Of a stretch of DNA of 58,003 bases, positions 27,630 through 43,703 are shown piece by piece. The notes under the pieces are model-generated. The model was not told the DNA's origin and did not search any database. It was given only the letters and a program-made list of their open reading frames with translations. Numbering within the stretch: the first letter of the stretch is position 1; the number at the start of each line of letters is the position of its first letter. The position numbers and the translations under genes were made by a program. This DNA comes from a virus: the IMG/VR virus record IMGVR_UViG_3300012988_000004, positions 1-58,003 of that record. One strand, 5' to 3'.

Positions 27630-29156
27630 TTATGATCCGAAAAAGAAGCCTGCCTCTGCCGTTGTGCTTGCAATGCGTGCAAATCCACTGCGCTGATAGC
27701 GGAAGAATGTTTCCAACCGATCAGGATTGGATTGTCCTATGTTTACCACAATACTAGCTTTCATGAAATCAGGATTGGTAATCAATGCCCTTGTCGCAAG
27801 ATCGTTCGCATACTCATTCAAGATACCGGTCCATTCCTTTGGCTTAATTACCCTATCCGCAGTCACCGTATCGCTGTCATTCGCGATAGAATGATCCTGA
27901 ACATACAATGCCTCAAGTAAATGATACCCGAACTTAACATTGTTGTCAATATTCAAATTACGGCAGTAACGATATTGTGCAGGGTTCTCTCCCAAAGGAT
28001 GATAAGTAGTAACGAAATCTTCTACCTTGAATTGACCGCTGACCAGATTAACAGTTGAGCATCCTTTCTTCACAATTGCATCACGATTGGTATAAACCGC
28101 CATTGTAGCTGTAGCCCATGATGCAGCTGTAGGCACTGGCATATCTGGATAATATTGACCAGAAACATCCAGATTCACATTATTCTGGAATTGCAATGCA
28201 GCCAAATAAGTCATGTTTGCTGCCGCCTCCAAAGACAATCCAAGACTACCTGGTGCCGGAGCAATAGCAATAGTCACATCATTCAGGTAAGTATCTGTGA
28301 TCGAACTTGGATCGTCTGCGGTTGATCCTGTGATTGCAATAAATGGTTTGAAGATAATACCCACAAACCGTCCTGTTGGATTGGTTGGATCAGGGATACC
28401 ATTGAATGACATCAATGACTGAATAGTAGTTGTCTCTGTTCCGTAAGGATTGACTACGATCGTATTCCAATCGTTCTGGAATAAATTCAATGAAGATGCA
28501 ATACTTGGTGTACCTGAACCAGCTTGAGGGCTGTTTAACGTATATGTAACACCAGCTGCATTTGTACCAGCATCTACCGATACCGTCAAAGCATCTGCGG
28601 TAAGGCCACTCCACTTACTTGTCAGGATTGCTTCATACGTATCCTGGTTGGCGCTGAATGGCGATCCAAGAATTCCATTGACTGCATTTACAATCTTTTG
28701 AAGAATTGTTGGAGTTGTGTCACCAACTACTATGTTGATGGCGTAATAGTTGTTATCGATGCTTTCTCTGCCTGCTATTTTAAGATAGTGAGTAACATTC
28801 GCAGTAGCTACACCAGTTGGTTGTATGCGCCAAATCTTTGTTGTGGCGCCAGCTGCTTTTGCTTGTGGGTATACCCAAACCGGAATGCCACCAATACCAT
28901 CTCCATTGTAAGGAAACAGAATACGGGACATCATGTGGATAGGTGAACCATATCCAAATAAAGTACCGGCTTGTTGTGATGTTGTAATTTGTGTTGGGGC
29001 ATTGACTGTCAGACCCGATTGATTGGCATCATTGGCCTCTCCCAACATTGCTATGCGCTGAGGGAGATTAGGAGAAACAAGATTGAAAAATCCTTTTGTT
29101 ATTTTATAGCCTACAATGCGGGAAATTCTGTCGAGCGTAACAGCGTTTGAGGACAT
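27630..29156 (-). CDS. contractile tail sheath protein
   Basis: The 508-residue protein matches Mu gpL-type sheaths in length and order: 'GYKITKGFFNLVSPNLPQRI' at the start, a central variable beta domain, then 'FVGIIFKPFIAITGSTADDP', 'NDVTIAIAPAPGSLGLSLEA' and a conserved C-terminal part 'DRVIKPKEWTGILNEYANDL' with 'FFRYQRSGFARIASTTAEAG'. It is the first gene of the tail operon and proves a myovirus. Its leader contains copy B of the shared 25-bp element. Confidence 0.88.
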   Translation of the reverse strand: MSSNAVTLDRISRIVGYKITKGFFNLVSPNLPQRIAMLGEANDANQSGLTVNAPTQITTSQQAGTLFGYGSPIHMMSRILFPYNGDGIGGIPVWVYPQAKAAGATTKIWRIQPTGVATANVTHYLKIAGRESIDNNYYAINIVVGDTTPTILQKIVNAVNGILGSPFSANQDTYEAILTSKWSGLTADALTVSVDAGTNAAGVTYTLNSPQAGSGTPSIASSLNLFQNDWNTIVVNPYGTETTTIQSLMSFNGIPDPTNPTGRFVGIIFKPFIAITGSTADDPSSITDTYLNDVTIAIAPAPGSLGLSLEAAANMTYLAALQFQNNVNLDVSGQYYPDMPVPTAASWATATMAVYTNRDAIVKKGCSTVNLVSGQFKVEDFVTTYHPLGENPAQYRYCRNLNIDNNVKFGYHLLEALYVQDHSIANDSDTVTADRVIKPKEWTGILNEYANDLATRALITNPDFMKASIVVNIGQSNPDRLETFFRYQRSGFARIASTTAEAGFFFGS

Positions 29157-29238: not shown

Positions 29239-29985
29239 TCAGGAAAAAATTTCTGAAAGTCCAAATCGATCCGATACTTCTACAAGGGTTCTATTCCAGT
29301 TAGCAAGAAAATATCCTGGCCCGAGTTCGGATGAATTGTAATCCTTCATTATGACCGAGTTTTTAATTATTCCCTGAGCACTGGAATTTCTTGCCTTGAG
29401 CATAATGTCTTTCCTTACCCATGAGAAATGGTGCATGAAGAAAGGAAGTTCTATTACATCCGATTGATTGATTGCTCTGGTTGGATCTACATAGAATTTG
29501 TATGAAGAACTGCCTGACCTAGTATCTTCATTAAGTTCATGGATAAAAGGCACGTAATAATCCTCTGGGCGGTCGAATATTAATGTTGGCTTCTTAAAGT
29601 AGGTTTGCATACGACATACGCTTCCTTTTGCTCCTGATTGGAAATAAAGTCTTTTGCATTCTCCAAAGTCCTCGTAGAATTCGTCCACATCCATTCCAAT
29701 AAAATGAGTGCAGTGATTATCGCGGGCGAAGTCTATTCCAAGGTTCCGTTTGGCTCGTTCATTCAGTTGACCTCCCCATTCGATTGTGGGATCATATTTG
29801 ACAAGGATTGTTTTATCATACGAAAGATGCTCTATCTCAGGAAGCGGACTCCACTGCTCACCAAAGTTGGAAATGGTCTGATAGACTATGATGATAAGAT
29901 CACAATGATCATAGATTTGCTCGATAGATTTTTCTAAAAGCTCAACTCCATCGTAGCAGTTATAAATTGCCGCGAGTTTAGTCAT
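29239..29985 (-). CDS. glycosyltransferase (GT-A, family 2-like)
   Basis: The 248-residue protein has a nucleotide-sugar-binding start 'MTKLAAIYNCYDGVELLEKS', the Asn/Arg helix 'QLNERAKRNLGIDFARDN' and a metal-binding D-x-D at 99-101 in 'FIGMDVDEFYED'. These are the marks of a GT-A glycosyltransferase. The substrate is unknown. It is the last gene of the cassette and overlaps the previous gene by 4 bases. Confidence 0.7.
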   Translation of the reverse strand: MTKLAAIYNCYDGVELLEKSIEQIYDHCDLIIIVYQTISNFGEQWSPLPEIEHLSYDKTILVKYDPTIEWGGQLNERAKRNLGIDFARDNHCTHFIGMDVDEFYEDFGECKRLYFQSGAKGSVCRMQTYFKKPTLIFDRPEDYYVPFIHELNEDTRSGSSSYKFYVDPTRAINQSDVIELPFFMHHFSWVRKDIMLKARNSSAQGIIKNSVIMKDYNSSELGPGYFLANWNRTLVEVSDRFGLSEIFS

Positions 29986-30695
29986 TGCATTCTTGTATAG
30001 ATGTTATCAGTCATTGGAAATTTTATGTCCTCCGGCTTCAAATCGAAATTCCTTTTCTTGCGCTCTATGAAATTCATTTTGCCCTCTTCGAAGGTTGCAT
30101 CATTCCTTTTGTTAAGGTCATCTTTTGGGATTGACTCGCATAGATGCCTGAAATCTAAATTTGTTCCTGAACTACATAATTGACACCATCTGCCAGTCAT
30201 TTCGGCAACGCATGTAAGTTCAGTATCACAAAACATGTGCTTGTAGGAAGGATGATAAACGTATCCGAATCGGTTGTAATACTTCCATCCCATGATAGGC
30301 ATAGTTATAATCCATACCTGTATACCATCAAATATATGGTAACATCTATCCTCTTCTTCACCGATGGATTGTTTAAGTGTCTTACCCCAATCTTGCGGAC
30401 AATCAAAGTCATCTGATATTACTATCAGGAAATCGCCAGGCTTTCCGCGATGCTTGGAATAAAATTCAGCTGCAACATTTATTGCTTCAATTGCTGATTT
30501 GTTTTGATTGATGAGCTTAGTGAAATTGAGACAAGGAAATTTAAAAGAATAATTCCAGAGTTCCGAATCATCCGAATCAAGACTCATTACATATTCGAAC
30601 TCATCTTGATCTAATCCTATTCGTTCAATCCATTTTTTTGCTGTGGCAATCGCCAATTGTGGACGGCTTCTGCTTGGATGGATTATAGTGATCAT
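29982..30695 (-). CDS. glycosyltransferase-like protein, paralogue of 36249
   Basis: The 237-residue protein begins 'MITIIHPSRSRPQLAIATAK', has an acidic cluster 'SLDSDDSE' (38-45) and a GT-A type 'VISDDFDCPQDW' (92-103). A conserved 'YHPSYKHMFCDTELTCVAEM' block recurs in the protein at 36249 as 'YHPAYKSFSCDAESFYVAMM'. The two are therefore paralogues. It is expected to transfer a sugar from a nucleotide donor; the acceptor is unknown. Confidence 0.65.
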   Translation of the reverse strand: MITIIHPSRSRPQLAIATAKKWIERIGLDQDEFEYVMSLDSDDSELWNYSFKFPCLNFTKLINQNKSAIEAINVAAEFYSKHRGKPGDFLIVISDDFDCPQDWGKTLKQSIGEEEDRCYHIFDGIQVWIITMPIMGWKYYNRFGYVYHPSYKHMFCDTELTCVAEMTGRWCQLCSSGTNLDFRHLCESIPKDDLNKRNDATFEEGKMNFIERKKRNFDLKPEDIKFPMTDNIYTRMQ

Positions 30696-31186
30696 GATTC
30701 CAAAAGTTTTGTCACATCAATATGATCGCTCATGGCCGTAGCCCATGCTCCGGGAGTTTCAAAGTCGAGATGATATTTGTATTTGTTGATCTCCGGCCTC
30801 ATCTGATAACCGTGTTCGGCAGCCGGTTCAGTATCATGTGCTATGATAATTTGTGCATGATGTAGTAAAGGCAATCTTATTTTACGGTCCTCGCCTGGCG
30901 CATGATCCACAAGTACAACTCCATAATCCTTTCTCAATGGTAATGTGTCCCAATTTTCAATGTATATGCTATCATTTTCCTTAGCATATTCCATCTTGTC
31001 ATCATACGTGATGAACTCCAATCCTTCATCTTTGCAGTATTGTCTAAGTACCGCAGTTGATCCCATTCCTGAGCCAAGTTCCAATGTAGGCAATTTAAGA
31101 TGCTTGGTTGCCTCAAGAGATGCCCATAACAACATTAGATGTGAGTTCCAATTTCCGAATACTTTTAAGAATTCTACTTTTGTCAT
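30692..31186 (-). CDS. class I SAM-dependent methyltransferase-like protein
   Basis: The 164-residue protein shows motif I 'LELGSGMGST' (residues 36-45), an acidic residue after the second strand (FITYDDKMEYA) and 'VVLVDHAPGEDR' as the fourth strand. It is shorter than many family members. The acceptor is unknown; in a glycan cassette O-methylation of a sugar would fit. Confidence 0.6.
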   Translation of the reverse strand: MTKVEFLKVFGNWNSHLMLLWASLEATKHLKLPTLELGSGMGSTAVLRQYCKDEGLEFITYDDKMEYAKENDSIYIENWDTLPLRKDYGVVLVDHAPGEDRKIRLPLLHHAQIIIAHDTEPAAEHGYQMRPEINKYKYHLDFETPGAWATAMSDHIDVTKLLES

Positions 31187-31191
31187 ATAAA

Positions 31192-31683
31192 TTAAATTAA
31201 GTCTTTAACTTTTCCTCTTCTACTAAAAGCGTTTATAACATTTTTTCCTTTTAATGGAAGATTGTCGGTCAACAATCTCAAATCTTCTTTTGAGATCATG
31301 TAGCGATACTCGTCCTTTATTTCCACCGGTTCTCCTTTCGCGATTTTATTTCTGAGGAAATTTATAAATGTATTGGGATTTGTGTCAAAATCTATATTTC
31401 CTATACGAATGATATTGTAGTTCTCCCAAATGTCATCAACCATTGTTTCCATAATCATTTTGTGGGTGAAGTATGGAGTTTCTTTTTCAAATAACTGAAT
31501 GCTACTGAAATAGAAAAGGCACTTATCGCGAGGTTGATCCAACAAGAGAAGATATTCTCTTTCAAATGCTTTGTGATCGGTTTCGCCACTATTGGAAACT
31601 CCGCTGGCAAAGAATATAGCGCCTTCACGGTCATTAAGTATTCGGGCGATATTTCCATTCCCCACAATCATTTCAATATCCAC
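31192..31683 (-). CDS. SDR-type (NAD-dependent epimerase/dehydratase-like) small protein
   Basis: The 163-residue protein has a nucleotide-binding start 'MIVGNGNIARIL', a strand 'AIFFASGVSNSG', an active-site-like 'YFSSIQLF' and Tyr71-x-x-x-Lys75 in 'YFTHK'. That Ser/Tyr/Lys layout is the extended-SDR catalytic pattern, but the length is half the usual 300 residues. It could be a minimal or reduced sugar-nucleotide-modifying enzyme. It overlaps the FkbM-like gene by 16 bases. Confidence 0.55.
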   Translation of the reverse strand: MDIEMIVGNGNIARILNDREGAIFFASGVSNSGETDHKAFEREYLLLLDQPRDKCLFYFSSIQLFEKETPYFTHKMIMETMVDDIWENYNIIRIGNIDFDTNPNTFINFLRNKIAKGEPVEIKDEYRYMISKEDLRLLTDNLPLKGKNVINAFSRRGKVKDLI

Positions 31684-32252
31684 AAACTATCCCAATAATT
31701 AAATCCAACTCCATGCTGAGAAGTGTAATCGTGCTTTATTGCTTCGTAACCCAATGCCTTCAGCTTATCTTCCATCATAGTCATCTCCGTTTGTCCGTAG
31801 ATTCCAGTGTGCAGATGAAACTCGATAGATAGCTGTTTAGCAGGCGCTTTGTCCAATGACATGATGACTTCATATTCCGATCCTTCAATGTCCAATTTTA
31901 TTAAATCCCAAAATTTAACATCGTAATAAACTGAAAGAGCCTTCAATGTTGTGCACTGAATTTCATAATCAGTTTTTGGTTGCTTTTGAATTCGGGTGGC
32001 TTGCTTGTCATCTGATTTTACTAAGTAGCCGGTGCCTATGAAATCACTGAGTGCAACCATGTCGTATGGTCCGCCTTCTAATTTATCGGCATCTATACAC
32101 CATACTTTGCATTTTAACTTAGCCATTCCTTCAGCGAATTCAAAGCCTCTGCATCCTGCATCCAAAACATTAGCTCCATCGTAAGGGAATATTCCACCGA
32201 AGCTGTAAGGGATGAAAGAATGTTCAGCAATTGTTAGTATTTCGCAATTCAT
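31668..32252 (-). CDS. FkbM-family methyltransferase
   Basis: The 194-residue protein carries SAM motif I 'VLDAGCRGFEFAEGM' (residues 29-43), an acidic 'VWCIDADKLEG', and the FkbM hallmark 'WDLIKLDIEGSEYEVI'. The C-terminus 'ALGYEAIKHDYTSQHGVGFN' is also typical. FkbM enzymes O-methylate sugars and polyketides. This makes sugar methylation the most likely role within the cassette. Confidence 0.72.
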   Translation of the reverse strand: MNCEILTIAEHSFIPYSFGGIFPYDGANVLDAGCRGFEFAEGMAKLKCKVWCIDADKLEGGPYDMVALSDFIGTGYLVKSDDKQATRIQKQPKTDYEIQCTTLKALSVYYDVKFWDLIKLDIEGSEYEVIMSLDKAPAKQLSIEFHLHTGIYGQTEMTMMEDKLKALGYEAIKHDYTSQHGVGFNYWDSLWILK

Positions 32253-32454
32253 ATTCGTAGTAAAAATTACTTATGACTGATTTGGCAATTATTTCCGATG
32301 TAGATGATTTCATAGTCTCGCCAGCACCAAGACCACATTTAGCGCACATGGGAACATGAAATTGCGCAGTCCAAGTTTGATATACTTTAACTGCAACTTT
32401 ATTGCTTCCACAACGAGGACAATTTTTATCAATGGTGGTTTCGTAATCTTCCAT
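32224..32454 (-). CDS. zinc-ribbon small protein
   Basis: The 76-residue protein has two Cys pairs, 'NCPRCGS' and 'MCAKCGLG', separated by 22 residues of strand-rich sequence, as in a zinc ribbon. The layout is similar to Lar-type restriction-alleviation proteins, but the tail is not, so no function is assigned. The end overlaps the FkbM-like gene by 29 bases. Confidence 0.55.
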   Translation of the reverse strand: MEDYETTIDKNCPRCGSNKVAVKVYQTWTAQFHVPMCAKCGLGAGETMKSSTSEIIAKSVISNFYYEYELRNTNNC

Positions 32455-33113
32455 TATTTAAAATGTTCCTTGCGAAACATTGGTTTATCTGCTATGCAAT
32501 AACGCACTTTATAGGCATCAGTTGGCTCATGGCCATTCAGATATATCGCTGCTGCCATGCAACTCTCATCATTCCTGTGGCCGTTTATAAGCTCGCTGGA
32601 GGCTTCATATTGGCTTCCGAACATTCCGCGAAGTTCTGATTGCTTCCATATTTGAAATATCTTCTGTGTCAATTCAAAGTCGAAATCGAAGTAATACATT
32701 GACCCTCCCACAAGTCTCCAATCTTTCTCCACCATCTCTTCTTTTTCGATATTGAAGTATTTCCGAGCTTTTTCCGAGATTAATCCGACAAGTTTGTTGT
32801 CATCCTTGATTGCCACCATTCGGAATTTGAATAGGTCGTCAATCTTGTCGGCAAGTATCATGGCAGGATCGAGCCAAATGATTTTTGTGAATCCATTCTT
32901 CCTTGCCTGCTCAATTGCATGAACTTTCAAGCCGTAAAGCGATATGTGGAAAGGGCGCGCGCCATCAGGCAATGTGTTGGTGTAGAAAAGTAAGTTCGCA
33001 TCTGGATAAATTGCTAGTATGGACTGCTTTAATCTTTCTTGTTGTTCCAAATAGCGATCATCACCATAATTGAACTTGCCGAAAGCCTGGCATACGAAAC
33101 AAACGTCATTCAT
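32454..33113 (-). CDS. glycosyltransferase-like protein
   Basis: Started at ATG 33113 the protein has 219 residues (MNDVCFVCQAFGKFNYGDDR). The middle 'GLKVHAIEQARKNGFTKIIW' followed by 'LDPAMIL' is the GT8/GT-A region where a D-x-D usually lies; here it reads D-P-A, so metal binding may be altered. 'RLVGGSMYYFDF' and 'GHRNDESCMAAAIYLNGHEP' resemble later GT8 motifs. An upstream ATG at 33167 would add 18 residues but overlap the preceding gene by 62 bases. Confidence 0.55.
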   Translation of the reverse strand: MNDVCFVCQAFGKFNYGDDRYLEQQERLKQSILAIYPDANLLFYTNTLPDGARPFHISLYGLKVHAIEQARKNGFTKIIWLDPAMILADKIDDLFKFRMVAIKDDNKLVGLISEKARKYFNIEKEEMVEKDWRLVGGSMYYFDFDFELTQKIFQIWKQSELRGMFGSQYEASSELINGHRNDESCMAAAIYLNGHEPTDAYKVRYCIADKPMFRKEHFK

Positions 33114-33321
33114 GATTGTAAATATTTTCTGCTTCCATAATATTATTGGCCTTATGCCATGTTCCATCTTTTTTTAGACAGATTAAATAATCAACACATT
33201 GTATATTTTGAAAAACTAATTTAGCATCAAAAAATGAATTGACTCCAATAACAAATTTATCGTCAGAACTTATGACCGTAGCCATTTTAAAGTTTTTTCC
33301 GTAAAAAGGAATTGCATTCAT
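33106..33321 (-). CDS. hypothetical protein, 71 aa
   Basis: Small mixed alpha/beta protein (MNAIPFYGKNFKMATVISSD...). It is coupled by a 4-base overlap to the upstream glycosyltransferase gene and by an 8-base overlap to the next. No family was recognised. Confidence 0.55.
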   Translation of the reverse strand: MNAIPFYGKNFKMATVISSDDKFVIGVNSFFDAKLVFQNIQCVDYLICLKKDGTWHKANNIMEAENIYNHE

Positions 33322-34121
33322 TGTAGTGCGTTTTTAAATTGTTCCGTATAGTCAGCAAACCATGTATGGTCATCGTGAGGGAAAACTGATGCCAGCATTC
33401 GCATGACCTTCATAAAGGTTTCGTCATTAGAATATATATCGTGAGGCAGGTGGCAGTCAATTGGATTAGGGTGGTAAGTAGCCCACGCACTCCTGTCAAT
33501 TCTTCCAATCGGGTATCCATTCGTAAGAACGCCACGATGAACAAATTCTTTTTCAAATTGTACTTCATTTATTCTTTTGGTTATTAGTCTCTGATCTGTG
33601 CACCATCTTTCAATTTGATTTCCGTTTTCGCGCGCATCTGGCATGTCGTCCAAGTCTCTCTTTATTAATTCGAGTGCATTATTAGTATAGATTCCCATTA
33701 CCTCTCTCCATCGTTCCGCCATCATTCCAATGTAGCATATCGGGATCTGTTGGTATCCTGTTAAGTCGTGACCCCAAACAGTTATTTTTTTTGGATCAAA
33801 TTTCCAATAATCACTCAAGGCCATCATGTCTGCATCGCCAGTCATAATATAATCACCATTTCCAGTAAAGCAGGCAGCATAAAGTCTTGAAACTTGTGCG
33901 ATTGTGTCAGAGCGATAGTTTTCAATATTAACAAAAGGAATTCCTTGCACATTAAAATTTTTAATTGCTTGTGCCACCACAAACATTGTGTCCAATGATC
34001 CTTTGCAGTTCTGCAAAACCATCACATCCCATCCTATTCTTTTCCATGACCATACAACCAATGGAAGAGTGAATTGGTAAATTGGATTCTCGTTAATTGA
34101 AAGGACGATTACTTTTCTCAT
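33318..34121 (-). CDS. glycosyltransferase (GT-A fold)
   Basis: The 267-residue protein starts 'MRKVIVLSINENPIYQFTLP' and has a clear D-x-D at 96-98 in 'YIMTGDADMMAL'. An acceptor-region signature 'RWCTDQRLITKRINE' and His-rich C-terminal segments follow (FPHDDHTWF). The 'GDADM' motif and the W-rich strand before it place it with GT-A enzymes of unknown substrate. It is probably cotranscribed with the other cassette genes. Confidence 0.65.
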   Translation of the reverse strand: MRKVIVLSINENPIYQFTLPLVVWSWKRIGWDVMVLQNCKGSLDTMFVVAQAIKNFNVQGIPFVNIENYRSDTIAQVSRLYAACFTGNGDYIMTGDADMMALSDYWKFDPKKITVWGHDLTGYQQIPICYIGMMAERWREVMGIYTNNALELIKRDLDDMPDARENGNQIERWCTDQRLITKRINEVQFEKEFVHRGVLTNGYPIGRIDRSAWATYHPNPIDCHLPHDIYSNDETFMKVMRMLASVFPHDDHTWFADYTEQFKNALQ

Positions 34122-34267
34122 TTTTGTTTCTTTTCAAGATCATCTATTCTTTCAAGCAGCATAAATATCATTTCCATTAAATAAGCAGTCGTAGTAGGAT
34201 ATTCGTGCTTTGATTTAGCCTTTAATCTAGCTGTATTAAAGAATATTTGTTTTTCCTCGAATGTCAT
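34118..34267 (-). CDS. small helical protein, 49 aa
   Basis: The frame MTFEEKQIFFNTARLKAKSK continues to a Lys-rich end. It is locked between two glycosyltransferase genes by ATGA overlaps on both sides (34264-34267 and 34118-34121). A single amphipathic helical hairpin is likely. Function unknown. Confidence 0.6.
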   Translation of the reverse strand: MTFEEKQIFFNTARLKAKSKHEYPTTTAYLMEMIFMLLERIDDLEKKQK

Positions 34268-35061
34268 AACCACCACCAGAATAGTTTAGGAAATTGTTTT
34301 TCTATCGCCTCGAACTTGCTTGGTTCTTTCTCAAATCTTATAAAGAAGCGAATTGTTTCCATCTCGTTCATACCCGGACTCCCAATAAATTGTGAGCACA
34401 AGTTAGATTCCCATAGCATTGGACGTACTTGTGGAAGTGGCGCTTGAGAGTATGAATCTGGAATTTCTTCGCCCAATGGTCCTCCAGACCAAAGTAAATC
34501 GTCCTTAATTCGCGGTAGAACCTTTGTATTCATCCAAACCTGATCTGATCCATGCTGAGATAAATCTAATCCACTAATCATTTGTTCCCAACTATTCACT
34601 TCCATGCAGGATCTAAACCATGCACAGTCAAACGAAACCATGCCACCCATCAATCCAGAATGTGCTCTATTGTCGAGTATGGCATGGCACTTCTTTGGGC
34701 TTTCCAGCCACTTTTGAACTACTAAGGCTTCCCGGTAGCTGCTGAGTGCATCTGCGTCCCTGCACAAAATATGAGTTACATTCTGGTCGAAGATTGGCTT
34801 CATCCTACGGAGCATTCCTTCACATCGCTTTGGCTTGTTTTCTTCGTTGACACTAATACTTAAGTTATTGTTAGCAACCAACCAATCGAATAGTCCCTGA
34901 AATTCTGAGTAAAGATCGCGCGATATTTCAAGATGAGTCTGCCAATCGGGGAACACAAATGAGTTCATCCTACAATTCCAGTACATTCCCCTTATGTAGA
35001 AAAGTTTCTCGAAGTTCTGTGTGCCTTCGGAGTTAAACAGGGAATAACATATTTTCTTCAT
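34264..35061 (-). CDS. glycosyltransferase-like protein
   Basis: The 265-residue protein has a metal-site-like 'HILCRDADAL' (98-105), a Gly-rich 'HSGLMGGMVSFDCAWF', and 'QHGSDQVWMNTKVLPRIKDD', a combination seen in sugar-transferase-like proteins with a GT-A fold. It ends in an aromatic tail (FWWWL). Substrate unknown. Confidence 0.58.
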   Translation of the reverse strand: MKKICYSLFNSEGTQNFEKLFYIRGMYWNCRMNSFVFPDWQTHLEISRDLYSEFQGLFDWLVANNNLSISVNEENKPKRCEGMLRRMKPIFDQNVTHILCRDADALSSYREALVVQKWLESPKKCHAILDNRAHSGLMGGMVSFDCAWFRSCMEVNSWEQMISGLDLSQHGSDQVWMNTKVLPRIKDDLLWSGGPLGEEIPDSYSQAPLPQVRPMLWESNLCSQFIGSPGMNEMETIRFFIRFEKEPSKFEAIEKQFPKLFWWWL

Positions 35062-35588
35062 AAAGCGTATAGTGAATGACCTTTTATTAAGGTATTGTTA
35101 ATAATAGCGTTTCTAATAGTTTTTTCAGATGCTCGAAAATATTTAGAGCATTCTTTTTTGGATACAAATTCAATCAATGAGCAATCCTGAATAGCAATAA
35201 TGGCATGACGATGTTTTGTGAATCCATTCTCTATTGAATGATTTGTATTTTCTTTTGGAGTTGTCCATTCTAATTCACTTGCACGACAATCCTTTTTATT
35301 ACCTTTTTTATGATTGACTTCTTTTTTGTTTTCGGGGTTTGGTATAAAATGTTCAGCTACAAGTCGGTGCAATAGAAATCTTTTTTCTACCTGTTCCACT
35401 TTAAGCATTACTGACAAATATCCATTCTTATAATGAGCAGTCGCTTTTTTCAATTTACTCTTGCAGAATTTGAATGATCCATAAAAAGGAACAAATCGAT
35501 CAATACTCCTAACTCTTCCAAGATCAGAAATCTCATAATGATTTTCATAACCTACGATTGGTTTCCATCTTTCAATTATTTCACTCAT
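35058..35588 (-). CDS. HNH homing endonuclease (NUMOD4-HNH-NUMOD1)
   Basis: Residues 5-30 are NUMOD4 (RWKPIVGYENHYEISDLGRV). Residues 70-112 are an HNH_3 nuclease (RLVAEHFIPNP, EVNHKKGNKKDCRASELEW, TTPKENTNHS). The C-terminus is a NUMOD1-like DNA-binding helix (SKKECSKYFRASEKTIRNAI). It is a free-standing homing endonuclease. It joins both glycosyltransferase neighbours by 4-base ATGA overlaps, so it has become part of the operon. Confidence 0.85.
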   Translation of the reverse strand: MSEIIERWKPIVGYENHYEISDLGRVRSIDRFVPFYGSFKFCKSKLKKATAHYKNGYLSVMLKVEQVEKRFLLHRLVAEHFIPNPENKKEVNHKKGNKKDCRASELEWTTPKENTNHSIENGFTKHRHAIIAIQDCSLIEFVSKKECSKYFRASEKTIRNAIINNTLIKGHSLYAL

Positions 35589-36166
35589 AATTCATGCTTG
35601 GGGTTACCGGCATAATAATAATAGATAATTTCTGGAATTGGATATTCCGTTTTAAGAACTCCTGCTTTTTGTAAAGCAATACTGTATTGACCATCCTCTC
35701 CCACTGTAATATCAGGATATTTTATGTCTTTGACTTTATCTAATCTCAAAAAATTAAGATGGTTTGGATTTCGATAGAACATTTGCGCATCCTGATACCA
35801 ATGATCATATTTCAATGAATGGTGAAATGGATTGTTCTTTTTACCATTCTCATAATATTGCCCAAACAATTCACCGCAATCTAATCCACTTTCAGCAACC
35901 TCAAGTCCTCGCTTAATGTAAGTTGGCCCCGGAAGATCGTCATCATCATGGAAGGCAATGTATTCGCATTTTCTTTCGACTGCCATCTGAATAAGGAAAT
36001 TCCTTTTTGCTCCAGTAGTCCACTCTTTATTATCGCGATGCCAAATAAAACAAACATCTTTTCCTTCAGGATCAACTTCATTCATTTGCTTGGTGAGTTC
36101 ACCTGTCAATCTGTTAAAAAGATCAACTCGCTCATCAAGGGTTGGGATTAAAATTCCTAATTTCAT
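35585..36166 (-). CDS. glycosyltransferase family 2
   Basis: The 193-residue protein starts 'MKLGILIPTLDERVDLFNRL', a GT2 N-terminus, and has 'IAFHDDDDLPGPTYIKRG' with the D-x-D at 74-77, then 'VGEDGQYSIALQKAG' as the acceptor-binding ED region. All three marks are standard GT2. The protein is short, consisting of just the catalytic domain. Confidence 0.72.
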   Translation of the reverse strand: MKLGILIPTLDERVDLFNRLTGELTKQMNEVDPEGKDVCFIWHRDNKEWTTGAKRNFLIQMAVERKCEYIAFHDDDDLPGPTYIKRGLEVAESGLDCGELFGQYYENGKKNNPFHHSLKYDHWYQDAQMFYRNPNHLNFLRLDKVKDIKYPDITVGEDGQYSIALQKAGVLKTEYPIPEIIYYYYAGNPKHEL

Positions 36167-36252
36167 TTTTTATTTTTTTGAAGTGATAGACAATAAAGCT
36201 GAATGATTGCTAAATAAATTCCTATGATAATCCAAAAATAAAATTCCTTCAT
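36163..36252 (-). CDS. single-pass membrane peptide, 29 aa
   Basis: MKEFYFWIIIGIYLAIIQLY is one transmembrane helix followed by a basic tail (LQKNKK). ATGA overlaps with both neighbours show that it is coupled into the glycosyltransferase operon. Function unknown. Confidence 0.6.
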   Translation of the reverse strand: MKEFYFWIIIGIYLAIIQLYCLSLQKNKK

Positions 36253-36965
36253 AAAAATTTTTGTAATTCAGTTCTTGCTTTTAAAATTTCGTGGCCGCTT
36301 GGCTCATCAAAATAACGCTTTAGTCTTTCGAAGTAAACTCTAACATCATGGTCTGTATGCAAAGAGTTCGCACGATAGGTCTCATCATTAGGAGCTGGGC
36401 TATTGGCCGGATGTTGATGCTTTGCCAATACCTGATCGAAATAATGATACTTTCCTCTCATCATTGCTACGTAGAAGCTCTCTGCATCGCAGGAGAACGA
36501 TTTGTAGGCAGGATGGTAAATATACGAGTCACGTTCGTAATACTCGCGTCCTATGACGCTCATGGTGCAAAGCTGATCGTGGGTATAACCATCCGAGAAA
36601 TGCAAATAGCAGTCGAGAGAACCGTTCCAAACGTCTTTTATGAGCTGCCTGATTACGTTGTCCCAGCCTGGCTGGATAAAGAAGAAGTCATCGCTCATGT
36701 TCACCAAAATGTCCCAATTTTCAGGCATGTGCCGGTTGATAGCGTCAACTTTAGTTTCGTGTGGTCCTGAGCAAACATCAATTTTTGGATTAGTGCGATA
36801 AAACTCTTTCATCTTATCCGAGTGCATTGTAAAATCGTCATCATCTATGCTCACCGAGATTATGTAGTTATCATCATGGATAGTGTTCATGATGTTGGAG
36901 ATGGCCTTCACAAAGTATTGAGGGCGATGGCGAGTGGCATATTTTATGAGTATGCGTTGGCTCAT
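36249..36965 (-). CDS. glycosyltransferase-like protein, paralogue of 29982
   Basis: The 238-residue protein contains 'SIDDDDFTM' (39-47) and 'VNMSDDFFFIQPGW' (88-101), matching the two acidic sites of the 29982 protein. The 'YHPAYKSFSCDAESFYVAMM' block is shared as well. This points to an old duplication within the cassette followed by separation over 6 kb. Confidence 0.65.
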   Translation of the reverse strand: MSQRILIKYATRHRPQYFVKAISNIMNTIHDDNYIISVSIDDDDFTMHSDKMKEFYRTNPKIDVCSGPHETKVDAINRHMPENWDILVNMSDDFFFIQPGWDNVIRQLIKDVWNGSLDCYLHFSDGYTHDQLCTMSVIGREYYERDSYIYHPAYKSFSCDAESFYVAMMRGKYHYFDQVLAKHQHPANSPAPNDETYRANSLHTDHDVRVYFERLKRYFDEPSGHEILKARTELQKFL

Positions 36966-36966
36966 A

Positions 36967-37116
36967 TCAATTATCGTGAAATCTTGTTTCCATTCCTAAA
37001 TTAATCCCGCATCTTTTGCAATGATAAAACTCATAGCTTATAGCCCAACATTTTTTGTCGCTTTTTTCAACCATCACTTTATTATGGCCGAATATTTTAC
37101 AAAGTAATTTTTTCAT
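36967..37116 (-). CDS. zinc-binding small protein (DUF1660-like), 49 aa
   Basis: From ATG 37116, coupled to the upstream stop by ATGA, the sequence is MKKLLCKIFGHNKVMVEKSD with a later 'YHCKRCGINLG'. The order Cys-x4-His ... Cys-x2-Cys is the pattern of DUF1660 prophage proteins, which are likely zinc binders of unknown function. A longer frame from 37182 would overlap the methyltransferase gene by 70 bases. Confidence 0.55.
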   Translation of the reverse strand: MKKLLCKIFGHNKVMVEKSDKKCWAISYEFYHCKRCGINLGMETRFHDN

Positions 37117-37667
37117 GGCTTTCGGAAAACCGCAGTAATCCACTTTGAATGATTTGGCTGCTTGAATAACTGTTTCTCCCATTCTGCCAAAAGTTCTTCT
37201 GCTTCTTTGGTGTAAGGGAAATCTTCCTGCCCAAAATTGTCTATGATGATATAGCCTCCTTGCCTGACTCGATCAAAAGAGTTTTGTAAGCATTCCAAGC
37301 GCCATGCTCCGTCAATTATGATGCAATCAAATTCATGTTGTTCTCCTTCAGCTTTCTTTAATTGTCTTGTGATTATGGATTCAAGTGTCGAAGTATAAAA
37401 TTTTGCTTTCGTAATGTAGTCTTCTTTTTCCTCCTCAAGATTTGCTCCCATCGCGCGTGCCCATGATGGATTGTTTTCTACGCTATAAATCATTAAGCAA
37501 TTGAGACGAAACCAAATAGTAGAGTAGCCACATCCAAATTCCATGATGACCCATCTGCTGATGTCCTGCTTCTTTAACCATTCCAAACAAGGAGTTGTAA
37601 ACCACGGTAAAATTAGACCGGATTCAGTGTCAATCGATTGCCACGGCATGTTTGCTCCGACAATCAT
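37113..37667 (-). CDS. class I SAM-dependent methyltransferase
   Basis: The 184-residue protein has motif I 'IMEFGCGYSTIWF' (41-53), an acidic 'YSVENNPSW' after strand 2, and 'FDCIIIDGAWRLECLQNSFD' with 'GGYIIIDNFG' as strands 4 and 5. It is a complete Rossmann methyltransferase. The acceptor is unknown. It is the first enzyme gene after the amphipathic small protein and one glycosyltransferase. Confidence 0.7.
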   Translation of the reverse strand: MIVGANMPWQSIDTESGLILPWFTTPCLEWLKKQDISRWVIMEFGCGYSTIWFRLNCLMIYSVENNPSWARAMGANLEEEKEDYITKAKFYTSTLESIITRQLKKAEGEQHEFDCIIIDGAWRLECLQNSFDRVRQGGYIIIDNFGQEDFPYTKEAEELLAEWEKQLFKQPNHSKWITAVFRKP

Positions 37668-37894
37668 GCAACCTTTTCCTTTTTGTCGGATTGCTTCTTA
37701 ATATCCTTTTCATTTTTTGAAGCATCAAAAAGAGAAGGTTCTTTTTTCTTTTTATTGGTAATCTCTTCGACTATTTCCTTAGTCTGTTCTTTAAGTTGAC
37801 TTTCGATAGCGCTGCGAACTACTGTCTGCTGCATTTGGAAATATGCGTCAATAAGTTCGCATAGTTCTACAAGTTTTTTTTCGGTCTTTGTCAT
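37664..37894 (-). CDS. charged helical protein, 76 aa
   Basis: Lys/Glu-rich protein (MTKTEKKLVELCELIDAYFQ...) with a coiled-coil N-terminal half and a disordered, Lys-rich tail (KKKKEPSLFDASKNEKDIKK). It overlaps the methyltransferase gene by 4 bases. No family was recognised. Confidence 0.55.
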   Translation of the reverse strand: MTKTEKKLVELCELIDAYFQMQQTVVRSAIESQLKEQTKEIVEEITNKKKKEPSLFDASKNEKDIKKQSDKKEKVA

Positions 37895-37913
37895 TTTGGT
37901 ATTGAATTAAGGT

Positions 37914-38099
37914 TTAAAGCACTTCTCCGTCTGCTAAATCTTCTGTCGCTTCACCGACATCATCAGCAGCAGATTGTAATAATTCTTTGGTTGCTTCCGG
38001 TTCTTCACCAGTGACAACATTAACTGCATCCTTAGCGATTGCAATGGGTGTTAAAGCAACCTTCACAACTGAACTAAACATTCCTCCTAAAAATCCCAT
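37914..38099 (-). CDS. small amphipathic/membrane-associated protein
   Basis: From ATG 38099 the 61-residue protein is MGFLGGMFSSVVKVALTPIA, then 'KDAVNVVTGEEPEATKELLQ' and an acidic helix. I recognise similar 'MGFLS...KDVVNVVTGEE' small proteins from other phages, where the function is also unknown. An ATG at 38150 would overlap the preceding gene by 47 bases and is less likely. Confidence 0.55.
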   Translation of the reverse strand: MGFLGGMFSSVVKVALTPIAIAKDAVNVVTGEEPEATKELLQSAADDVGEATEDLADGEVL

Positions 38100-38103
38100 A
38101 GTT

Positions 38104-38784
38104 TTATTTTTTAAAGTAGTTGTCGTAAAATTCGAAACTTTCTGCGTCAAGTGTCTCTTTTAAAAATCCATTGTCGAGATGGATGTAGCGCAGCTTCACG
38201 TAATCGTCATCGTGGATTCGGTGGCCTCCACCGTCAATAGTCTTGCCCTGGCCGTGTTTAATGCCTATGGAATACCATTTGTCCGGCATCCAGATCATCC
38301 GGTTAGGTATTGTCTTCCAAAGATGAAGATCGAGATAAGGTTCAAGGTCAACAGGCCATATGAAGTCCATATCAGGCTTAATGAAGGTGTTCATGGCGCT
38401 GGAGCGGTTGTGGTGCTCCATGATGTAGTAAGCCTTCAGTTCGATATGGTAGTACATAGTCTTGGCGGTACCAAAAAGATCAGGTCTGCCAAGTTTATCC
38501 CATTGCGCTAGCATTACTTGGAGATAATTTGGTGAGTACCAATCGTCCGATTCCATGAAGGCAATCAAATCAACTCCTTTGTTTCTGAAATAATTGTAGC
38601 CAGTACGATATCGAGGCGTAATGTCCACATCATTGTCCTTCGGAGGATATAAAACCAAGTGAACCTCCATATCAATATTAACCGGAGAATCTTTTTCCTG
38701 AGCATTGATCATTCGAAGGCAGTTCTCCAAAAATCTTGGGCGATCACCGCGATCGGGCACAACAATTCCTAATTTTAAGTCCAT
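38104..38784 (-). CDS. glycosyltransferase family 2
   Basis: The 226-residue protein starts 'MDLKLGIVVPDRGDRPRFLE', a GT2-type N-terminus, and carries 'LIAFMESDDWYSPNYLQVML' with the metal-site S-D-D at 79-81. The second half is rich in His, Trp and Asp (GGGHRIHDDDYVKLRY). First glycosyltransferase of the cassette. It overlaps the homing endonuclease gene by 10 bases. Confidence 0.7.
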   Translation of the reverse strand: MDLKLGIVVPDRGDRPRFLENCLRMINAQEKDSPVNIDMEVHLVLYPPKDNDVDITPRYRTGYNYFRNKGVDLIAFMESDDWYSPNYLQVMLAQWDKLGRPDLFGTAKTMYYHIELKAYYIMEHHNRSSAMNTFIKPDMDFIWPVDLEPYLDLHLWKTIPNRMIWMPDKWYSIGIKHGQGKTIDGGGHRIHDDDYVKLRYIHLDNGFLKETLDAESFEFYDNYFKK

Positions 38785-39350
38785 AAAAATCCTCCTGCTG
38801 TTTTTCTTTTTTTATTGATGCAATCACCTATGTGGTGCCTCTTTATGCCAGTTGATATTGCTGCTTTAGCTATAGAATCAAATGTCTTAATTAACTCACC
38901 TGTTATTTTTCTTTGAGTGGCTTGCGTTCTGTTAAAAATTCTTCCAGTAACAGATGGTTTTCTTTTAAGAACATCATAAGAGTGCTGAACATTCTCTGAT
39001 GGAGTTGTCCATTCAAGATTTTTGTAATAATTGTTCAATCTATCTCCATCCTTGTGATTAACATGCGGCTTGCTGAATTTATTTTCAACAAATACTTCCG
39101 CAACTATTCGATGAGTAGAAAATGTAGTCCTGATTAAATTTTTTGTGAGAATTATCAAATGATAACCCATCCGCAAAGTGAATTTCAAAATTCTTGGTTG
39201 AGTATTGCAAACTCCACCGTGATGTAAATTGAATGCCTTCGGATAACTTTTAAACCTACCAAAAGAACTTACTTGATAAAGCCCTTCATAATTTGGAATA
39301 TCTTTCCAAACCTCAACTTCTCCTTTTTCCGGTCTTATTCCTAGTTTCAT
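38775..39350 (-). CDS. HNH homing endonuclease (NUMOD4-HNH-NUMOD1)
   Basis: Residues 13-40 are NUMOD4 (EVWKDIPNYEGLYQVSSFGR). Residues 80-127 are an HNH_3 nuclease (RIVAEVFVENK, HVNHKDGDRLNNYYKNLEW, TTPSENVQHS). The C-terminal part is NUMOD1-like (FDSIAKAAISTGIKRHHIGD). The first residues 'MKLGI' match the usual start of the cassette's GT2 proteins, suggesting the element entered near the start codon of the glycosyltransferase gene now beginning at 38784. Confidence 0.85.
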   Translation of the reverse strand: MKLGIRPEKGEVEVWKDIPNYEGLYQVSSFGRFKSYPKAFNLHHGGVCNTQPRILKFTLRMGYHLIILTKNLIRTTFSTHRIVAEVFVENKFSKPHVNHKDGDRLNNYYKNLEWTTPSENVQHSYDVLKRKPSVTGRIFNRTQATQRKITGELIKTFDSIAKAAISTGIKRHHIGDCINKKRKTAGGFLWT

Positions 39351-39430
39351 ATTTTCATTTTAAAAAACCGCCCTACCTGATAGGCGGTATCATTCCTTTT
39401 AAAACTTTCTAAATTAAACCTAATCATCAT
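39347..39430 (-). CDS. possible leader peptide, 27 aa
   Basis: A 27-codon frame (MMIRFNLESFKRNDTAYQVG...) runs through the terminator hairpin at 39361-39388 and ends with a TGA overlapping the ATG of the HNH gene. The coupling suggests ribosomes could pass through the hairpin region and affect termination. It may equally be chance. Confidence 0.3.
   Translation of the reverse strand: MMIRFNLESFKRNDTAYQVGRFFKMKI
39361..39388 (-). terminator. rho-independent terminator before the glycosyltransferase cassette
   Basis: On the minus strand ACCGCC pairs with GGCGGT (6 bp, 10-base loop) and is followed by six T. It separates the terminase block from the cassette. Confidence 0.75.
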
Positions 39431-40828: not shown

Positions 40829-42871
40829 TTATTTAGGAATTATTTTTTTTACGAAGTCCTGCCACGTTCCTTTCTTGATGCCAAACTCCTTTAAGGTCTG
40901 ATCTACAATGATGTCGCGAAGAGCACAGTTATAAATTTTCACATCCCACATGTGGTTTTGTGCATTGGAGTTTACCTTCACCCACCGGAAGCCAATTACC
41001 TCACCGTCCTTAGTCTCGGAGACCTTATGCTCTGACTGAAAATGCTCGAAGTAGTTTTGGTAGAGATAAAGTCCTTGCGATGGAGTGGGGAAGTTCATGA
41101 AGCCGAACGGCTGCTTCTCATTGCCTCGATCCCAGGTCAGCTTCATCGCCTCCGCAAGTCCATCCTTCAGAAAGTTTACATCCAGTAGGTAAAGATCGCC
41201 TCTCTCCTTACTCGGTTTGAACGAGGGCGAGTCCATATCGAACTTCCGGTACTTGCTTTCCTTGTCTCCTTTGATTCCAATTACTCGCTTGTGGTTGTTA
41301 TCGATGAACTCATAGGCGAATTGGGTGTAATGACCGGTATCCACGCCAACTAAAGCTATTCTCATAGGTCTGCCGACATTCCTAATATCATTGGGCAATG
41401 GGAAGGCGGTATCGGTTTTATAGACTTCACTGATGATTTTCTTCAGCTCGGGCCATACGCTCTTATCCTTGTAATGAAAATAAGTCCACCTTTCCCGGTC
41501 CTCTTTTACTTTTTTAGTGGTTTCACGTGGAACGAAGGTGCCTATCGACCCATGTTTCACGCTGTAGGATACTCCGCTCTCGCTCCAGGCCACAATCTCG
41601 TAATCCAAGCGTGCATCTTGCTCGGTGCCGTTTAGATCACATGCACATGTGAGTAAAACGATCTTTCCATTGCCATCGCTGACTGAAAGTGACTCGGGGA
41701 GAACTCCCACCTCGTAACCACGTATGTTTTTCTGTAAAATAGAGGCTTCTGGGGCTTCTCCGCTGGGTTCATACGTCAATCCAAGGTTCAAATTGATGAA
41801 AGCTTGATACTTTTGTTCTGATTTCTTGCCATTTGTAGGGCATGCTTCAAGCCATTCTCGCACATAATACTCCCAATCATACGTCCCCGGAGGTGCATAA
41901 AGGCTGGAAATGTGATAAGAATAGTACCCAATTTGGCTCGGTTCGGCTCCTGGAATCCATTCTCCGGCAAGATTCATCTCGTATTTTAGGCTGTCATCGA
42001 AGAATCCAGAGCACTTTTGGCATACATAACCCACCGTTCCATCGATCAAACGACCACTTTCGTCTGTTTTCCATGTGATTCCTCCCTTCTCACGTCCTTC
42101 TGTGCCGTCTATTTCTATTTCCCAATAGAGTGGTATTAGTTCTCCGCAGCATGGGCATGGCACGTGGTATCTGCGTTGGTCCCCAAGGAGGAATACAGGC
42201 TCTATGTTGGAACTTGCCTTCAACTCGGGTGTGGAGATGTAGTAAAGTTTCATCTTGTCATAGTAGGCTGCAAAACGGCCTTGAATCATCGACCGAGTGT
42301 TACCCGACTTCTTACTTTGCTTCTCAACCGAGTCAAAGTCATCTATAAATCCGTACTGTATGGACCTCTGCCGGAGTAGAAGGTGATTTGAGGCGCTGCC
42401 TGCAGTCAGGGATCCACCTGGAAACTCCTTGGCCTTGCTTGTATCACCGGTTCTTTGGTTCTTTTTGCGCAGAATTGAAGGCCTTATGAGCGATCTAAGC
42501 CCGCAGGAGTCGATCATCTGGTCGATTTTCTTGTTCATGGACTCTTCCGCAAGCAGTTCATGGCCGCTCATAAACAGGATATTGCCAGGGTTTTGAGAGA
42601 TAATCCACCCTATTCCGTTCTCAATTACACCTGTAGAGAACCCTATTTGAGCACCTTTCATGACCGCAACAATGCGAGCTGGGTGCGAAGGACTCAAACA
42701 GTCCACTACTTCGCGCATGTAAGGGGTCATTTTGAAGCTGAAAGGCCCTGGCCATGGGGTGACATCGGAGGTCATAACCCGGTTCTGCTCGGCCCACAGG
42801 GAAGGCTTGATGTCGGAAAGAAGATATTTGGAGGAGTCTAGTATCTCCTCAAGTTTATCCTCGATGATCAT
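40829..42871 (-). CDS. terminase large subunit, lambda gpA family
   Basis: The 680-residue protein matches phage_terminase GpA. There is a Walker A-like 'VMKGAQIGFST' (70-80), Walker B-like 'YGFIDDFDSV' (173-182), a 'YISTPELKASSN' coupling motif, and a zinc-binding insert 'VPCPCCGELIP' with 'YVCQKCSGFF'. The C-terminal nuclease half includes 'LTCACDLNG' and 'LVGVDTGHYT'. It cuts and translocates DNA into proheads. The lambda type suggests cos-site cutting, but no cos site could be located. Confidence 0.9.
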   Translation of the reverse strand: MIIEDKLEEILDSSKYLLSDIKPSLWAEQNRVMTSDVTPWPGPFSFKMTPYMREVVDCLSPSHPARIVAVMKGAQIGFSTGVIENGIGWIISQNPGNILFMSGHELLAEESMNKKIDQMIDSCGLRSLIRPSILRKKNQRTGDTSKAKEFPGGSLTAGSASNHLLLRQRSIQYGFIDDFDSVEKQSKKSGNTRSMIQGRFAAYYDKMKLYYISTPELKASSNIEPVFLLGDQRRYHVPCPCCGELIPLYWEIEIDGTEGREKGGITWKTDESGRLIDGTVGYVCQKCSGFFDDSLKYEMNLAGEWIPGAEPSQIGYYSYHISSLYAPPGTYDWEYYVREWLEACPTNGKKSEQKYQAFINLNLGLTYEPSGEAPEASILQKNIRGYEVGVLPESLSVSDGNGKIVLLTCACDLNGTEQDARLDYEIVAWSESGVSYSVKHGSIGTFVPRETTKKVKEDRERWTYFHYKDKSVWPELKKIISEVYKTDTAFPLPNDIRNVGRPMRIALVGVDTGHYTQFAYEFIDNNHKRVIGIKGDKESKYRKFDMDSPSFKPSKERGDLYLLDVNFLKDGLAEAMKLTWDRGNEKQPFGFMNFPTPSQGLYLYQNYFEHFQSEHKVSETKDGEVIGFRWVKVNSNAQNHMWDVKIYNCALRDIIVDQTLKEFGIKKGTWQDFVKKIIPK

Positions 42872-43059: not shown

Positions 43060-43703
43060 TTCCTTGTCTGTGAATATTCATGTACGATATGCGCCAGCGA
43101 CCGCTTGCTCTCCGTTATCCCATCCTCGATCGCTCGGTTGATGATGGTCACCAGCTGCCCTCTGAGTTCGGCCTGATCGTTCCTGGCTATCTTGGCTTTC
43201 TTACCGAATTCCACCGCTATGAGGTCCGCAGCTTGCTTGAAAGTGAGCGTAACACTCTTAAAATGCTGCGCGAATAGGTTCTTTACCATGTCAGTAGGGA
43301 TTAATTTGCCCAATAGTTTCTCTTCCTGCAGGCGGGCAAGCCTCATTTCCTGATCCAATCGCTCAATCTCCTTCTGTTTCTTCTCATAGTCGATGTCCAT
43401 CTTCTTGAGGGCACGGTCTGTGATGTTGACAGTATGGGTGTTTTCCCGGGAAAACTCTTCATTTTCGAGGTTTTTTGAGTTCGATGAGGGAGGATCTGGT
43501 GGTGTAATATCCGACTTGGTGTGGACTTCAACCTGTTTTTTTGGCTTATTCAGGCATTTGGTCTTGAAGGCGCGATTAATTTCATTGGTGTCGTCTATCA
43601 TTTCATTCTCGACTAACACTTTCTTGCGCTGAATGTATACAGACAAATCCTTTGTCCTTATTCCACATAGTTCACTGAATTCTTTTTTAGTCAATAGCGC
43701 CAT
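43056..43703 (-). CDS. terminase small subunit-like protein
   Basis: The 215-residue protein has an N-terminal helix-turn-helix (LTKKEFSELCGIRTKDLSVY), a Ser/Pro-rich linker, a coiled coil (EKKQKEIERLDQEMRLARLQ) and a helical C-terminus. This is the Nu1-type layout. The position just before TerL supports DNA recognition during packaging. Confidence 0.65.
   Translation of the reverse strand: MALLTKKEFSELCGIRTKDLSVYIQRKKVLVENEMIDDTNEINRAFKTKCLNKPKKQVEVHTKSDITPPDPPSSNSKNLENEEFSRENTHTVNITDRALKKMDIDYEKKQKEIERLDQEMRLARLQEEKLLGKLIPTDMVKNLFAQHFKSVTLTFKQAADLIAVEFGKKAKIARNDQAELRGQLVTIINRAIEDGITESKRSLAHIVHEYSQTRK

Follow-up and report, generated by a model that had tools for sequence, protein, structure and literature searches.

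A phage gene cassette that probably glycosylates the virion, with one tyrosine each in tail sheath and head decoration protein as candidate attachment sites

Phage glycosyltransferases (GTs) are common in metagenomes, and their targets are almost never known. Virion glycosylation has been described in the mycobacteriophages Che8, Corndog and Myrna (Freeman et al. 2023, via PMC11652166, PMC12363180, PMC12619734 and PMC4351075): virion glycoproteins are proven for Che8 (PMC12363180), an O-methyltransferase and three GTs are found among the virion genes of Corndog (PMC4351075), and glycans are reported at the C-terminal ends of the capsid and tail tube proteins (PMC12619734) rather than in turns. 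Tyrosine O-glycosylation has been described in the S-layer proteins of Paenibacillus alvei (SpaA) and Thermoanaerobacter (PMC2943079), where a lipid-linked glycan is believed to be handed over by an oligosaccharyltransferase as the protein is secreted. To our knowledge, tyrosine-anchored modification of the particle of the kind proposed below has not been described in any other phage.

The window analyzed here (the whole 58,003-nucleotide stretch of virus record IMGVR_UViG_3300012988_000004) contains a 10-kb cassette of 19 ORFs at positions 29239-39350, all on the minus strand. As in Che8, Corndog and Myrna, soluble phage-encoded GTs and an O-methyltransferase are linked to virion genes, with head and tail proteins modified (here a prediction), and the arrangement resembles that of Corndog. 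Among viral models, the signature GT of the cassette, R, is close to a GT of phage Che8, with likeness at the fold level only and no sequence homology found to the Che8 or Corndog enzymes. The locus differs from the mycobacteriophage system in phage and host phylum, in its predicted acceptor (a turn tyrosine of the sheath and of a gpD-like decoration protein), and in being larger, exchangeable and present at two sites. In the S-layer system a self-assembling surface protein carries its glycan in O-linkage on specific tyrosines, a linkage that is only inferred here; the cassette, by contrast, shows only soluble enzymes, which presumably act on cytoplasmic virion proteins. The cassette and its flanks were annotated as follows.

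27630-29156, minus strand: tail sheath (phrog_165), flanking the cassette; proposed acceptor
29239-29985, minus strand: A, GT-A-like protein with DxDEFY; second in frequency among cassette genes
29982-30695, minus strand: B, glycosyltransferase, PHROG 14945
30692-31186, minus strand: C, putative methyltransferase, resting solely on a glycine-rich motif (GxGxGST); no Pfam match
31192-31683, minus strand: D, mini short-chain dehydrogenase/epimerase-like protein (half-size SDR)
31668-32252, minus strand: E, FkbM methyltransferase (Pfam PF05050, above cut-off)
32454-33167, minus strand: G, GT-A-like protein with an invariant Asp within a WxD motif
33318-34121, minus strand: I, GT8-like transferase with an invariant DxD; weak profile match to J
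34264-35061, minus strand: J, GT-A-fold transferase with an invariant RDxD (AF2 pLDDT 89)
35058-35588, minus strand: K, NUMOD4/HNH homing endonuclease, passenger
35585-36166, minus strand: L, GT2 glycosyltransferase (Pfam E 4e-5, above cut-off; PHROG 14775)
36249-36965, minus strand: M, glycosyltransferase, PHROG 14945, paralogue of B, with an invariant SDD
37113-37667, minus strand: O, Methyltransf_24-like methyltransferase (Pfam E 3e-5, slightly under cut-off)
38104-38784, minus strand: R, GT2-type, GT-A-fold glycosyltransferase
38775-39350, minus strand: S, NUMOD4/HNH homing endonuclease, passenger
39367-39388, minus strand: terminator-like hairpin immediately upstream of the cassette (consensus scan only)
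40829-42871: TerL, the other flank

The original prediction had described eight GT-A-like proteins, an FkbM and two other methyltransferases and a half-size SDR between packaging and tail genes. Both the content and the location (TerL to sheath) held, with support that is uneven by gene; the two homing endonucleases had been overlooked, and the claim that the genes mostly join by ATGA overlaps failed, as such 4-base overlaps occur at only 6 of the 18 junctions. A structure search, one of the checks it had proposed, found the GT-A fold for the AlphaFold models of R and J. The model of R (AF2, pLDDT 88.6) adopts a nucleotide-diphospho-sugar-transferase/GT-A fold with SpsA and other GT2 enzymes as top PDB matches, its D80 and D81 (the acidic metal/sugar-nucleotide motif of the fold) are invariant, and its match to Pfam GT2 (E 0.003) is below cut-off. 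Foldseek matches of J include nucleotide-sugar transferases and also nucleotidyltransferases, and a PDB profile search with I likewise matched a nucleotidyltransferase. PHROG glycosyltransferase families were matched by three genes (29982, 36249 and 35585), and the assignment of A (29239), G (32454) and I (33318) rests on DxD-type acidic residues conserved across diverged homologs. Profiles of A, G and D gave no convincing match to the PDB; D retains GxGxxI and YxxxK in 6 of 6 homologs, and all of its family profile matches were non-significant (Pfam RmlD, E 0.26). Homologs of L occur in Mycobacterium and Gordonia phages, and M has a distant homolog (about 25% identity) in the Streptomyces phages Gilson, Samisti12 and their kin (PHROG 14945), in which R was not found. 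A tblastn search with R against 50,697 phage records (E 1e-3) returned no match, and no R-bearing phage of this lineage is known to be in culture.

Twelve cassette genes keep their order in four relatives at 38-65% identity, and the cassette is therefore more than a chance assembly, although three of the twelve are missing in one of the four; K and S are missing from the syntenic relatives. We then surveyed 50 TerL-sheath intervals from a sheath-based sample of this Bacteroidota-type myophage lineage, across which the cassette is discretely present or absent: the interval is empty in 21 and filled with 2.7–9 kb in 27, and R is present in 24 of the 27 filled blocks. The recognizable genes of the relatives' cassettes are almost all glycan-type enzymes, including acetyltransferases, amidotransferases and deacetylases, and the proteins are almost all soluble, with no candidate transmembrane (TM) segment in 244 of 248. 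Blocks occur in either orientation, or alternatively at a hub–portal site. Late expression had been argued from the position before the tail operon; this argument is weak, because in 16 of the 24 R-bearing filled relatives the block runs in the orientation opposite to that of TerL and sheath, so that position says little about timing. Orientation changed at least 3 times on the tree. An invertible phase-variation element was considered and ruled out, since the block lacks flanking long inverted repeats and its orientation is stable on the tree. The frequency of a Bacteroidota-type promoter motif was not above chance expectation. The Ficleduovirus kin Flavobacterium phage FCV-1 and Cellulophaga phage phiSM share the sheath, hub, portal and capsid families, have the head module before the tail module, and carry neither cassette nor R.

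In the alignments of 12 virion and packaging proteins (4,574 columns in all), just two columns depended on the presence of R, and both are tyrosines:

28635-28637, minus strand: codon for Tyr174 of the sheath, where a glycan is proposed to be attached
13284-13730, minus strand: lambda gpD-like head decoration protein (Pfam HDPD, E 3e-9), proposed acceptor
13608-13610, minus strand: codon for Tyr41 of the decoration protein, where a glycan is proposed to be attached

Sheath Tyr174 was present in 18/18 phages with R and 0/17 without, and decoration Tyr41 in 18/18 with R and 0/16 without (all Gly); none of 200 random labelings yielded any R-dependent column. In a larger sheath set, Tyr174 was found in 39/39 sequences with R and 0/20 without, the sole outlier among 4,012 columns. 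The pattern recurred in held-out contigs for the sheath tyrosine (5/5 vs 0/11; 16/16 agree; p 2e-4) and the decoration tyrosine (10/11 vs 0/10; 20/21 agree; p 3e-5), and an alignment-free loop check agreed with it. On an independent tree built from seven other proteins, R and the two tyrosines each changed 7 times, congruently, and all 6 well-supported independent contrasts agreed (sign p 0.03 each). R is the only gene whose distribution matches the tyrosines; FCV-1 and phiSM have Gly/Ala at the sheath position and Gly at the decoration position. Both sites are short turns with otherwise variable neighbors. Both tyrosines depend almost perfectly on R. Capsid and tube proteins showed no R-dependent column and no R-dependent change in length, and Ser/Thr-rich C-terminal tails of capsid or tube, considered as acceptors, were not found. 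Among R-bearing phages, four virion columns depended on A, weakly. No PDB relative of the decoration protein was found.

Five contigs with the TerL-sheath interval in view (L113, L145, L148, L173 and L166) have the sheath tyrosine and no R, the interval of L166 being filled; the tyrosine also occurs in additional short fragments that do not show either junction completely. All of these tyrosine-without-R contigs are fragments lacking the hub-portal site. After inspection, L113, L145, L148 and L173 were set aside because the latter three group with phages that bear R at the hub-portal site (the placement of L113 is loose); counted as R-negative, they change the larger sheath comparison to 39/39 vs 4/24. 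One contig (L177) carries R with Gly at decoration position 41. Tight R–sheath co-evolution was rejected, as their distances correlate only weakly (rho 0.21); for the strong correlation of R with hub distances (0.69), the hub–portal group is the probable cause. There are no biochemical data.

We consider it likely that the cassette sugar-coats the phage particle and that R is a protein-tyrosine priming GT acting at Tyr174 and Tyr41, the modification itself and the activity of R on tyrosines being inferred. R, as a cytoplasmic GT-A enzyme, would take the first sugar from a host nucleotide sugar and place it on the two tyrosines, in turns (presumed exposed) of two abundant proteins. The remaining GTs would lengthen this sugar, and the methyltransferases, joined in relatives by acetyltransferases, amidotransferases and deacetylases, would decorate the glycan, giving a lineage-specific glycan on head and tail. 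The tyrosine O-glycoside product, the order of steps and any benefit are likewise inferred. On a bolder reading, which we consider fairly likely, R represents a phage protein-tyrosine O-glycosyltransferase family acting on two unrelated virion proteins, the contractile tail sheath and the gpD-like decoration protein, at turn tyrosines that come and go with the enzyme, with swappable partners giving each phage its own particle glycan. Virion glycosylation had been the favored of three options in the original prediction, which named no target; the comparative evidence supports that choice and points to the sheath and decoration protein, via tyrosine.

The second of the three options was that the cassette remodels host capsule or LPS, for superinfection exclusion or serotype conversion, with the tyrosines as unrelated lineage markers. 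Phage GTs with a host-surface role are well known, the cassette genes (GTs, acetyltransferases, amidotransferases, FkbM) recall O-antigen loci, and an integrase was found in 4 of 27 records searched. Against this, the cassettes yielded no recognizable GT of the membrane-bound or polyprenyl type and no recognizable flippase, polymerase or ligase, the scarcity of TM segments noted above applies, no integrase was found in the window, and two virion tyrosines that change seven times along with R are left unexplained. The hallmarks of Gtr-type serotype conversion (membrane GT, bactoprenol GT, flippase, temperate phage) were not found, and we regard this option as unlikely.

Two further alternatives appear very unlikely. 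R might modify the same tyrosines with a non-sugar group, for example by nucleotidyl transfer, the other enzymes serving otherwise: nucleotidyltransferases share the GT-A fold and are among the matches of J, and tyrosine nucleotidylation is an established protein modification, but the top matches of R are GT2 glycosyltransferases and R travels with other GTs. Alternatively, the tyrosines might be not acceptors but receptors or contacts for another particle component encoded with R, with R and the tyrosines co-selected by host or environment. The association is indeed correlative, with only seven independent changes; however, no gene other than R has a matching distribution, tyrosine supplies the free hydroxyl that a GT requires, and both sites are short turns amid variable neighbors.

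The remaining option, glycosylation of hypermodified DNA bases in the manner of T4-like phages or phages with Tet/JBP, has in its favor that DNA-hypermodifying phage GTs exist and that a Tet_JBP gene occurs in one relative (G047), but is all but excluded, as genes for a thymidylate-synthase-family hydroxymethylase, Tet/JBP or TAGT were not found in the window (perhaps slightly incomplete) and are missing in nearly all relatives searched, and the tyrosines would stay unexplained.

Genome comparison alone thus points to a probable enzyme, to its two probable acceptors and to the individual residues, and makes the long-standing question of what phage GT cassettes target directly testable by mass spectrometry. 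If virion glycosylation by this cassette is confirmed, the phenomenon would reach beyond actinobacteriophages, to myophages that are kin of Flavobacterium and Cellulophaga phages, tyrosine would be added as an attachment residue, and R would be a small, soluble tool for adding sugars to short loops. Looking for residues whose presence and absence follow those of an enzyme gene could also reveal the targets of other phage-encoded modifiers.

The phage record, from IMG/VR (window size 58,003 bases), carries on its (-) strand, in order, TerS, TerL, the cassette, sheath, tube, tape measure, baseplate, hub, portal, protease, decoration protein and capsid. The features discussed here are:

43691-44608 (-): double homing endonuclease (GIY-YIG plus HNH), adjoining the small-terminase gene
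40829-42871 (-): TerL
29239-39350 (-): the cassette
38104-38784 (-): R, signature gene of the cassette, a GT2-type GT-A-fold glycosyltransferase (GT)
27630-29156 (-): tail sheath, with Tyr174
21452-23047 (-): baseplate-wedge-like protein, 531 aa against ~235 aa in relatives owing to a mid-protein insertion of 'MTSPDGITWT' repeats (EPTP/DUF6242, propeller-like)
13284-13730 (-): lambda gpD-like head decoration protein, with Tyr41
7763-9322 (-): protein behind the head/fibre genes with a GDSL/SGNH-hydrolase domain and a signal-peptide-like N terminus, possibly an esterase acting on host polysaccharide

The sheath shares 49% identity with its counterparts in Flavobacterium columnare phages (FCV-1, for example) and 46% with that of Cellulophaga phage phiSM; FCV-1 and phiSM are without the cassette, and their head module precedes the tail, whereas in the window it follows. 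Comparison of 12157-42871 with related contigs (L002, L005, L156, L257, L261) placed the head module after the tail in the window lineage, and several R-negative relatives share the FCV-1 and phiSM order. We interpret this difference as an ancestral module swap.

Of the cassette's 19 ORFs, eight encode GT-A-type proteins, three methyltransferases, one a mini-SDR and two NUMOD4/HNH homing endonucleases; the rest encode small proteins, two of them zinc-ribbon-like. The order of twelve genes, R-O-M-L-J-I-G-E-D-C-B-A (O, E and C, methyltransferases; D, mini-SDR; the others GT-A-type), is kept in relatives at 38-65% identity, a range like that of the structural genes (48-68%); one relative, L096, is without G, E and D. 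Neither the endonucleases nor the small ORFs occur in the order-keeping relatives; they are passengers. Four GTs were named by Pfam or PHROG profiles (L, R, B and M; L by both libraries), and AlphaFold models of J and R (pLDDT 89 each) matched nucleotide-sugar transferases and GT2 enzymes. Even in diverged homologs, each family retains its acidic motif (R, D80-D81; J, RDxD; I, DxD; L, DDD plus ED; B and M, SDD; A, DxDEFY; G, WxD). The original prediction of eight GT-A-like proteins held, with the reservation that these motifs are the sole basis for assigning A, G and I, save a weak I–J profile match.

The block is a discrete unit that can be exchanged. Distribution was assessed in a survey seeded by sheath and blind to GTs (70 non-redundant loci; TerL and sheath both in view in 50). 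The TerL–sheath interval was empty (≤421 bases) in 21 of the 50, ~1 kb in 2 and filled (2.7-9 kb) in 27; R was present in 24 of the filled intervals, with its block running in the same direction as TerL and sheath in 8 and in the opposite direction in 16. Two phages with an empty site have R between hub and portal instead, and the state of the TerL–sheath site changed at least 10 times on the sheath tree. Portal-adjacent R was observed in L022, L023, L024, L029, L031 and L177, between hub and portal wherever both were in view; in L029 and L023 its sole companion is a 540-582 aa protein (no Pfam match in L029). In L127, L144 and L166 other genes fill the TerL–sheath interval and R was not seen (sheath residue Thr in the first two, Tyr in fragment L166). 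Recognisable unassigned cassette genes of relatives are mostly glycan enzymes again (hexapeptide acyltransferases, amidotransferase/asparagine-synthase-like proteins, FkbM and other methyltransferases, PIG-L deacetylases, further GTs). R had no match among 50,697 records of cultured or deposited phages; where it has close matches in bacterial genomes, these are phage-like contigs belonging to MAGs of Bacteroidetes, Chitinophaga and Phycisphaerales. The 134-kb phage contig L088 carries the sub-block B-L-J-I..C with no gene of the window's structural module seen, and parts of the glycan set therefore move between unrelated phages; L034, inside the lineage, has a rearranged version.

Virion-protein residues were scanned for dependence on R, and sheath Tyr174 was the sole standout of the first scan. 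The aligned position is Tyr in all R-bearing phages and Gly, Thr, Ala, Pro, Ser, Asn, Asp or Leu in R-negative phages, the single outlier of 4,012 columns (39/39 with R versus 0/20 without; next best difference, 0.61). A further scan, started from R-negative sheaths, supplied a held-out set (16 unseen contigs, no exclusions) in which Tyr was found in 5/5 with R and 0/11 without. The matching stretch of solved sheaths is a variable-length loop in which Tyr is absent at that place. When full-length records were used to bring in the head proteins, a second R-tracking column emerged, decoration Tyr41. Across 35 records, 12 proteins and 4,574 columns, exactly two columns were R-dependent, Tyr41 (18/18 versus 0/16, R-negatives all Gly) and Tyr174 (18/18 versus 0/17), and 0/200 random labelings yielded any. 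Outside the discovery set, Tyr41 was present in 10/11 records with R and 0/10 without, the lone exception (L177) having R but Gly. On a tree from seven other proteins, R and the two tyrosines each change seven times, always jointly, and 6/6 well-supported independent contrasts agree; records with both docking sites (TerL–sheath and hub–portal) in view gave no exceptions. Both tyrosines sit in short turns with otherwise variable neighbours and a frequent (S/T)-x-Tyr-(D/E) pattern.

In four fragments (L113, L145, L148, L173) the sheath residue is Tyr, the TerL–sheath site is empty and R is not in view. Three group closely with phages having R at hub–portal and do not reach that site; L113 is placed loosely. 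All four were excluded post-inspection, and counting them as R-negatives gives 39/39 versus 4/24. L166 combines a filled interval and Tyr with R not in view; Tyr also occurs in further short fragments that do not show the junctions. Several R-negative full records were picked with the sheath residue already known, so the blind test there covers the decoration site only.

Two rival readings were considered (ALTERNATIVES). Host-envelope remodelling is unlikely: no likely TM segment was found in 244/248 cassette proteins, no membrane GT or flippase was recognised, the window has no integrase, and the tyrosines are left unexplained. DNA modification is also improbable, with base hydroxylase or hydroxymethylase absent from the window and the tyrosines again unaccounted for. 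One R-bearing relative (G047, related to L119) has a Tet/JBP dioxygenase gene far from its cassette (C1:42029-42391), and this phage might modify its DNA in addition.

Virion glycosylation, which the original prediction favoured, is established in mycobacteriophages, where it affects capsid and tail proteins (PMC12363180, PMC11652166); in Corndog, three GTs and an O-methyltransferase are encoded among the virion genes (PMC4351075). S-layer proteins provide examples of glycans linked to tyrosine (PMC2943079); to our knowledge, no phage virion is known to be modified on tyrosine. The window cassette differs from the mycobacteriophage type in site and sequence homology, and is therefore counted as a variant working like that type, not a member.

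The simplest account, which we consider likely, is R-primed glycosylation of the two virion tyrosines with the other enzymes building on top; the evidence linking R to the tyrosines is association, not biochemistry, and modification, chemistry and donor sugar are all inferred. R would act in the cytoplasm, either ahead of assembly or while it proceeds, glycosylating sheath Tyr174 and decoration Tyr41; the remaining enzymes would extend and methylate a lineage-specific glycan on R's sugar. Such modification may serve particle stability, adsorption, or masking from host proteins or defences.
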